A DNA stretch of 38,174 bases from Oscillospiraceae bacterium (GTDB taxonomy: Bacteria > Bacillota > Clostridia > Oscillospirales > Ruminococcaceae). This document shows, one piece after another, positions 2,334-18,216 of this stretch; position 1 is the first letter of the stretch; each line of letters starts with the position of its first letter. Position numbers and translations under genes: made by a program. Under the pieces are notes generated by a model, which searched no databases, was not told where the DNA came from, and was given only the letters and a program-made list of their open reading frames with translations. The stretch covers positions 1-38,174 of the forward strand of contig WRMK01000004.1 in the NCBI GenBank assembly GCA_009777155.1. Reading direction: 5' to 3'.

Positions 2334-2470
2334 CAATGTATAATTGACAATGGACAATTAATTTAATTAAAAAGCCTGTTGAAAAATCGACAGGCTTTGC
2401 TTTTTTTCTCGTAACTTTCAAAGTAAAATATAATTATCAATTGTCCATTGTCAATTGTAAATTGTTCGTC
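2321..2470. repeat. F2 inverted-repeat element, arms gacgaacaattgacaat.. / ..attgtccattgtcaattgtaaattgttcgtc
   Basis: Inverted termini gacgaacaat/attgttcgtc plus heptamer-like ggacaat/tgacaat repeats. Confidence 0.85.
2371..2407 (+). terminator. Rho-independent terminator after GGGtGRT gene
   Basis: aaagcctgt-tgaaaaatcg-acaggcttt followed by gcttttttt. Confidence 0.8.
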
Positions 2471-2565: not shown

Positions 2566-2805
2566 ATGACTGCTACATTGGAAAAAATAAAGTGCGTAAT
2601 TATTTATCTAATATATGACGAAGAAGTTGATGTTTGGATTGCCATGAGCGAAGATGTTCCGGGGCTTGTTTTGGAGTCGGAGTCTAAGGAGACTCTAAAG
2701 AAGCGAGTAAAGCTCGCGGCACCCGAATTGCTGGAGCTTAATGGCGTGGAATTTGACGAAGACCTTTTGATTAATTTTCGTGAGGTTGAGAGGGTTTTTG
2801 GGTAA
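2566..2805 (+). CDS. HicB/DUF1902-like antitoxin
   Basis: MTATLEKIKCVIIYLIYDEEVDVWIAMSEDVPGLVLESESKETLKKRV; ORF track start is 2476, but ATG 2566 has an SD-like aaagga and fits the family; overlaps downstream HicA-like ORF. Confidence 0.65.
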   Translation: MTATLEKIKCVIIYLIYDEEVDVWIAMSEDVPGLVLESESKETLKKRVKLAAPELLELNGVEFDEDLLINFREVERVFG

Positions 2806-3002
2806 TGGCGGAGTACGAGAAGAAAGTGCGGGAAGTCTTGAAAGAAAACGGTTACTTTTTCGAGAGACACGGCAAAGGCGACCACGACATTTGGTTTAAC
2901 CCCGAAATTCAAAAATCCGTTTCGGTCGATGGGAAAATTAAATCTCGCCATTCTGCAAACGGAATTTTGAAAGAGGCGAAAATAGATTTTCGTTTTAGAT
3001 GA
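2805..3002 (+). CDS. HicA-like mRNA interferase toxin
   Basis: EKKVREVLKENGYFFERHGKGDHDIWFNP..SANGILKEAKI; small ORF directly coupled to HicB/DUF1902-like gene. Confidence 0.7.
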   Translation: MAEYEKKVREVLKENGYFFERHGKGDHDIWFNPEIQKSVSVDGKIKSRHSANGILKEAKIDFRFR

Positions 3003-3120
3003 AGCCTGTTGAATAGCCGCCCATTCTGTTTCATTTAATTATGAAAAAGATGGGCGGCTATTAAAAACTTTGCTAAAGCAAAGTTTTGTTACGACAGGGG
3101 GGTGAAAACCCAACAGGCTT
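3002..3120. repeat. F5 multi-hairpin element copy A (outer stem aagcctgttg/caacaggctt)
   Basis: Internal hairpins aatagccgcccat..atgggcggctatt and aaaactttgc..gcaaagtttt; same core in reverse orientation at 17889-18003. Confidence 0.85.
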
Positions 3121-17883: not shown

Positions 17884-17888
17884 ATAAA

Positions 17889-18003
17889 ACCGCCGCCCAT
17901 TCTCCCCACTGACGTAAGAAAACTTTGCTTTAGCAAAGTTTTAATAGCCGCCCATCTTTTTCATAATTAAATGAAACTGAATGGGCGGCTATTGGGCGGC
18001 GGT
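17889..18003. repeat. F5 multi-hairpin element copy B, inverted relative to copy A (outer stem accgccgccca/tgggcggcggt)
   Basis: Reverse complement contains aatagccgcccattcagtttcatttaattatgaaaaagatgggcggctattaaaactttgctaaagcaaagtttt, near-identical to copy A core. Confidence 0.88.
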
Positions 18004-18013
18004 TCGTTTATTT

Positions 18014-18216
18014 GCGGACGACCGGGGGCGGTCGTTCCTACGTGCAAAAAAGATTTTCGGTCGTTGAAAATTTTTATTGTAGGGTCGGGCTTCCATGCCC
18101 GACCGTTCATTTCTGGGTTGTTCGCGGGCGGGCATGGAAACCCGCCCCTACAGCAATAATTTTCAACCACATAAAAATATCATGGTATGTAGGGGCGAAC
18201 TGCGTTCGCCCGCAAA
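18014..18216. repeat. Cluster of F4 palindromic units with different cores
   Basis: gcggacgaccgggggcggtcgttcctacg; tgtagggtcgggcttccatgcccgacc; cgggcgggcatggaaacccgcccctaca; tgtaggggcgaactgcgttcgcccgc. Confidence 0.82.

Follow-up and report, generated by a model that had tools for sequence, protein, structure and literature searches.

The loop of a hairpin exposes DNA as a single strand, the form on which Y1 HUH transposases act, and group IIC introns recognise terminator-like hairpins, although they typically insert beside the hairpin and not inside it. Some IS110 relatives, like group IIC introns, target REPs, attC sites or terminators. Palindromes as hosts of short repeats have been described for the GTAG- and CGTC-tagged REPs, including the GTAG-15 dimers of A. 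variabilis, the GTAG-23 elements of T. roseum and the CGTC-1 dimers of H. neapolitanus, all of which lie within palindromic sequences (Di Nocera et al. 2013, PMC3733652). For two of the three, the palindromes used by a family share a single consensus and no empty one was found, while the T. roseum targets fit a short GC-rich consensus and many GTAG-23 targets are unoccupied (PMC3733652). The element examined in the present study, F5 (AATAGCC...TTACGNCAGGGG, ~90 nt), is most probably a small non-autonomous mobile element of DNA that has entered the loops of hairpins already in place.

The window, by which we mean the whole stretch of 38,174 nt analysed here (positions 1 to 38,174 of contig WRMK01000004.1, forward strand), belongs to the Oscillospiraceae bacterium assembly GCA_009777155.1, a draft of 2.36 Mb in 209 contigs that is 98% complete. 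A first-pass annotation had reported two copies of F5 with near-identical cores in the window, copy A at 3002-3120 and copy B at 17889-18003 in the opposite orientation, and both were confirmed. Copy A lies at its reported place on the plus strand. The 5' arm of its pre-existing host hairpin, AAGCCTGTTG (3002-3011), pairs over 10 bp with the 3' arm CAACAGGCTT (3111-3120). The P2 hairpin with its apical stem and loop (AATAGCCGCCC..GGGCGGCTATT, 3012-3062) is followed by the P3 hairpin (AAAACTTTGC-TAAA-GCAAAGTTTT, 3064-3087) and by the 3' tail of the element (GTTACGACAGGGGGG, 3088-3102), whose boundary we infer from a 16-copy alignment. The remaining TGAAAACC (3103-3110) is probably a remnant of the host-hairpin loop. 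Copy B occupies 17900-17993 on the minus strand (P2 17943-17993, P3 17919-17942, tail 17900-17918) and matches copy A at E = 1e-34. Its host-hairpin arms, given on the plus strand, are AACCGCCGCCC (17888-17898) and GGGCGGCGGTT (17994-18004), pairing over 11 bp.

The resemblance of the copy A stem to a nearby terminator, also pointed out in the first pass, holds, as both contain the arm AAGCCTGT. This intact terminator hairpin (2371-2398, plus strand) reads AAAGCCTGT-TGAAAAATCG-ACAGGCTTT and is a model for the appearance of an empty host hairpin. Copy A has TGAAAACC where this sister terminator has TGAAAAATCG, and the TGAAAA in the intact loop (2380-2389) serves as the comparison. A stem search found stems of the copy A type elsewhere only in the 2371 terminator and once on contig C81. 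Inverted ATTGTCAATTG / ATTGTCCATTG repeats flank the terminator on both sides between 2330 and 2470; this additional dispersed repeat is also present beside copy L013. At 2566-3002, upstream of copy A, lies a HicA-like gene whose PF07927 match falls just below cut-off, with a DUF1902 gene before it. The two form a probable toxin-antitoxin pair, and the TGA stop of the HicA-like gene (3000-3002) overlaps the 5' arm of the copy A host hairpin by one base.

A whole-genome search located the core (P2, P3 and tail; ~90-95 nt, folding into two main hairpins) at ~16 distinct places in the assembly, some of them truncated by contig ends, in addition to decayed copies clustered on contig C34. All exact matches to the P3 motif genome-wide are F5 copies. 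The P2-type hairpin matches are likewise F5 copies, except for the decayed C34 cluster and one plain terminator on contig C106. The latter (L055:165-196) is an ordinary terminator, AATAGCCGCC..GGCGGCTATTTTTATT, with the same stem as P2, a hint from its sequence that P2 itself may derive from a terminator. Many copies lie beside gene 3' ends and most are close to gene ends; two sites are on prophage-like sequence, one of them adjoining a tape measure gene. Outside this genome, a full copy diverged from those described above was found in one of 70 congeners (G011), and a second congener (G004) has a P2-like piece within a terminator-like hairpin. A covariance model search of 398 genomes drawn from the family found no F5 copy in the 397 others. 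A pattern scan of GTDB returned one copy, identical in sequence to that of G011, from the Oscillospiraceae MAG WRJM01000138.1. The same scan of IMG/VR returned only a prophage copy (L058) matching copy L004, and no F5 copy was found in the phage and plasmid collections searched.

For the outer stems we took, in all copies with both flanks, the best pairing whose 5' arm ended no more than 4 nt from AATAGCC and whose 3' arm started no more than 29 nt beyond TTACG; L015 and L017, in which the contig ends inside the right flank, were left out. A stem of 7-17 bp was present in 12 of 15 copies. As L008 and L016 represent the same site in two related prophage contigs, this corresponds to 11 of 14 independent sites. 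The L008 and L016 copies, at the end of contig C1 and on contig C198, lie upstream of a repressor gene, and the L016 copy has a tandem duplication within P3. In every stem-bearing copy the gap between the 5' arm and AATAGCC is 0-1 nt, and the start of the 3' arm lies 13-17 nt beyond TTACG. When right flanks were permuted among copies the observed stem total was never reached (0/5000). Across 116 kb of this genome, 1.1% of positions outside long ORFs are so flanked; against this background the binomial probability of the observed stems is near 1e-19. Mean identity within the genome was 0.89 for the cores as opposed to 0.34 for the 10-nt outer arms, which marks the outer stem as a pre-existing hairpin that does not belong to the element. 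The report that the outer stems of copies A and B are unrelated in sequence yet self-complementary extends to the stem-bearing copies across the genome, with the core abutted at a fixed position. The copies are dispersed and near-identical, their flanks are unrelated between copies yet mostly self-complementary, and their 5' end abuts the stem top.

Several host hairpins carry T-runs on one or both sides and directly follow gene ends. These include that of L003 (GTTGTTTTTT), 3' of a ybjQ-like gene, and that of L012, in the spacer between rplQ-like and murA-like genes (gene names by sequence inspection). Terminator loops, which the first pass had favoured as the target, are used, but not exclusively, as GTAG-REP palindromes serve as well. 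L010 and L011 lie within GTAGGGGCGGG..CCCGCCC units, which are members of the GTAG-REP family, and L006 and L015 retain half a REP. REPs and terminators of the host-hairpin kinds are also present without F5. The nesting also occurs in reverse on contig C34 (L059:1785-1988), where a GTAG-REP dimer, as part of a 136-nt stretch, interrupts the apical loop of a decayed F5. The region holds several F5-like units in a decayed state, of which some have no P3. GTAG-type REP palindromes are very dense in the genome (57 distinct GTAGGG-type matches in ~116 kb, often as dimers), with positions including 426, 11544, 18079-18160 and 27049 of the window as well as L059, L064 and L065, and the outer flanks of some dimers are themselves inverted repeats.

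The left boundary of the element at AATAGCC is exact and the right boundary is probably the G-run, beyond which a few GAA- or A-rich bases resembling terminator loops precede the 3' arm. With the G-run as the right end and loop-like bases beyond it, insertion would have taken place at the 5' stem/loop junction of the host hairpin, and the A-rich nucleotides next to the 3' arm would be the old host loop. As the element folds compactly, the arms of a host terminator could still meet, and the insertion may be tolerated for this reason. The same compact fold within the loop, which may spare termination, and the proximity of most copies to gene ends are also what one would expect if insertion were approximately random between genes and selection kept the terminator-loop copies as the least harmful. 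This explanation is nonetheless unlikely, given that the 5' boundary falls at the stem top in every stem-bearing copy and that REP loops, which have no obvious need for sparing, are used too.

Single-stranded hairpin loops would be the substrate in the proposed insertion, as expected of single-strand transposition by Y1 (HUH) enzymes, and the single TnpA_REP/RAYT-like protein of the genome may act in trans as the enzyme. Its gene, the only Y1_Tnp gene identified, lies on contig C154 (L089:703-1290, minus strand) and encodes 195 aa with NHVH and YIDENP motifs. As described for TnpA_REP subclass 2.4 (PMC6006769), the gene contains GTAG-REP sequences in frame with its coding sequence; some of them stand between the HUH and tyrosine motifs. 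The REPs associated with the gene are those inside it, and no F5 copy lies beside it. A longer element combining F5-like ends with a transposase gene was not found in the genome, which counts against the insertion reading and leaves the Y1 protein a candidate. A different machinery, either an IS110-type recombinase or a terminator-targeting group IIC intron system, appears improbable. IS110-type transposases are present on contigs C38 and C76, but no link between these genes and F5 was seen and the P3 motif occurs in no element other than the F5 copies. The group IIC system is disfavoured since no reverse transcriptase domain (RVT_1) was matched in the 98% complete genome; F5 also differs from these introns in its length of ~90 nt and in matching no Rfam family.

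The core is itself structured. The consensus from the 16-copy alignment is AATAGCCGCCCnTTCTGTTTTATTTAATTATAAACAAGATTGGCGGCTATT-AAAACTTTGCTAAAGCAAAGTTTT-CTTACGTCAGGGGG, and three copies folded together with their outer stems had z-scores of -8.7, -9.4 and -12.1 relative to dinucleotide-shuffled sequences. P2 and P3 together show two-sided changes at six pairs, with a core covariation score of 0.140 compared to 0.092 for shuffled alignments (0/500) and at most 0.054 for slid partners. Four of the six pairs come from P3 of the G011 copy (GATGTTTTGC-TAAA-GCAAAACATC) and so count as one lineage. An apical P2 pair is UA or CG within the host genome and AU in G011. The core hairpins thus covary, making F5 structured as well as mobile. 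Between the two readings offered in the first pass, a structured RNA or a mobile element entering hairpin loops, the genome-wide copies support insertion. That F5 is an RNA family with a covarying closing helix P1, its copies being paralogous genes for small RNAs or elements of 3'-UTRs, is highly improbable: the whole unit does fold far better than shuffles, P2 and P3 do change on both sides, and the many copies beside gene 3' ends would be transcribed, but P1 shows no intermediate states and its arms are unrelated between copies, some P1 stems can be recognised as REPs or as terminators, both kinds of which also occur without the core, no Rfam covariance model matched at gathering score in the window and six loci, and the copies occupy non-homologous loci including prophages. 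A complete change of arms beside a near-fixed core is not expected in a young paralogous family with a covarying helix and is explained directly by insertion. The best reading is therefore a REP- or MITE-like element whose nested insertion mimics an RNA with a covarying stem.

Copies with non-complementary flanks, which the first-pass annotation had named as evidence against its proposal, do occur at three of the 14 sites (L006, L007 and L009), the other 11 being stem-bearing; the three do not outweigh the 11 clean sites. Two of them look broken or rejoined. L006 has its half REP on one side only, and at L009 two gene fragments with no relation to each other meet, the one on the right starting at position 62 of the DUF2262 model. 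An interruption of one gene by F5 was considered for L009 and rejected, as the left fragment contains none of the missing half of the DUF2262 domain, indicating a rearranged or chimeric junction. L007 shares its left flank with L012 and has lost the usual 3' end, for which we have no explanation. Because several copies lie at contig ends of a 209-contig draft, some junctions may also be misassembled. The first pass had further proposed a search for empty sites in related strains. No orthologous empty site with the same stem was found using ybjQ orthologues and prophage proteins, the latter leading back to the same prophage and otherwise only to one distantly related repressor, and the case for insertion accordingly rests on the pattern and not on a before-and-after pair. 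Short terminators free of the element follow the ybjQ-like gene in the relatives G004 and G045; with a stem sequence different from that of L003, they are supportive but are not true empty sites. Also counting against insertion are the lack on F5 of the GTAG tag of RAYT-mobilised REPs, the stem-less sites, the draft junctions and the differing stems of the ybjQ terminators.

A broader and more tentative proposal is that transposition is aimed at DNA shape and not at sequence. Any stable hairpin loop might then be entered at its 5' stem/loop junction, and the element, being made of hairpins, could become the next target, leading to reciprocal hairpin-in-hairpin growth with REPs that is disguised as a covarying RNA. 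F5 provides a clean natural data set for structure-directed insertion, in which a hairpin loop is the only evident feature shared by the 11 independent sites. For RNA discovery pipelines it is a warning, as a mobile hairpin in terminator loops produces an outer helix that mimics covariation and is in reality a collection of host stems unrelated to one another. Should the Y1 protein be responsible, the question of how REPs spread and choose their targets would be tied to a concrete, testable substrate.

Like the GTAG and CGTC REPs (PMC3733652), F5 is a short palindromic repeat, with the two hairpins per unit that are often seen in them, and is found mostly downstream of genes. In contrast to those REPs, it carries no GTAG or CGTC beside the stem. 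GTAG is absent from the foot of either hairpin in the 16-copy alignment, as is the CGTC adjoining an 8-9 bp stem with a CCA-like tail that is typical of CGTC REPs; the CGTC present in some F5 tails is several nt from P3, whose stem is 10 bp, and is not conserved. F5 would thus behave as a passenger of the REP or IS200/IS605 type, but with the tag missing and no F5 copy flanking the transposase gene, it is not a GTAG or CGTC REP. The REPINs mobilised by RAYT/TnpA_REP proteins (PMC3116915, PMC8266576) share with F5 the two hairpins, the non-autonomous nature and the multiple copies, and the genome that carries F5 encodes one RAYT-like Y1 protein and is very rich in GTAG REPs. Unlike in REPINs, P2 and P3 are unrelated hairpins with no mirror arrangement. 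F5 also resembles MITEs and PATE-like derivatives of IS200/IS605 in its shortness, subterminal hairpins, asymmetric ends, lack of a visible target duplication and plausible single-stranded target. It differs from IS200/IS605 derivatives in that no parental IS with F5 ends was found, which may be missing from the draft assembly, and in having no fixed target tetranucleotide at the AATAGCC side; the loose GAA on the opposite side may be target or element. Apart from a weak TTCAA/TTGAA at one site, the two ends do not form inverted repeats, and the flanks of the copies inspected contain no direct repeat bordering the element of the kind seen in DDE-type MITEs. REPs within palindromes thus have a precedent (PMC3733652), from which F5 differs in that its targets are hairpins of unrelated sequence, including terminators. 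It is ordinary in size and likely non-autonomous, and its shape-based target pattern is unusually clear.
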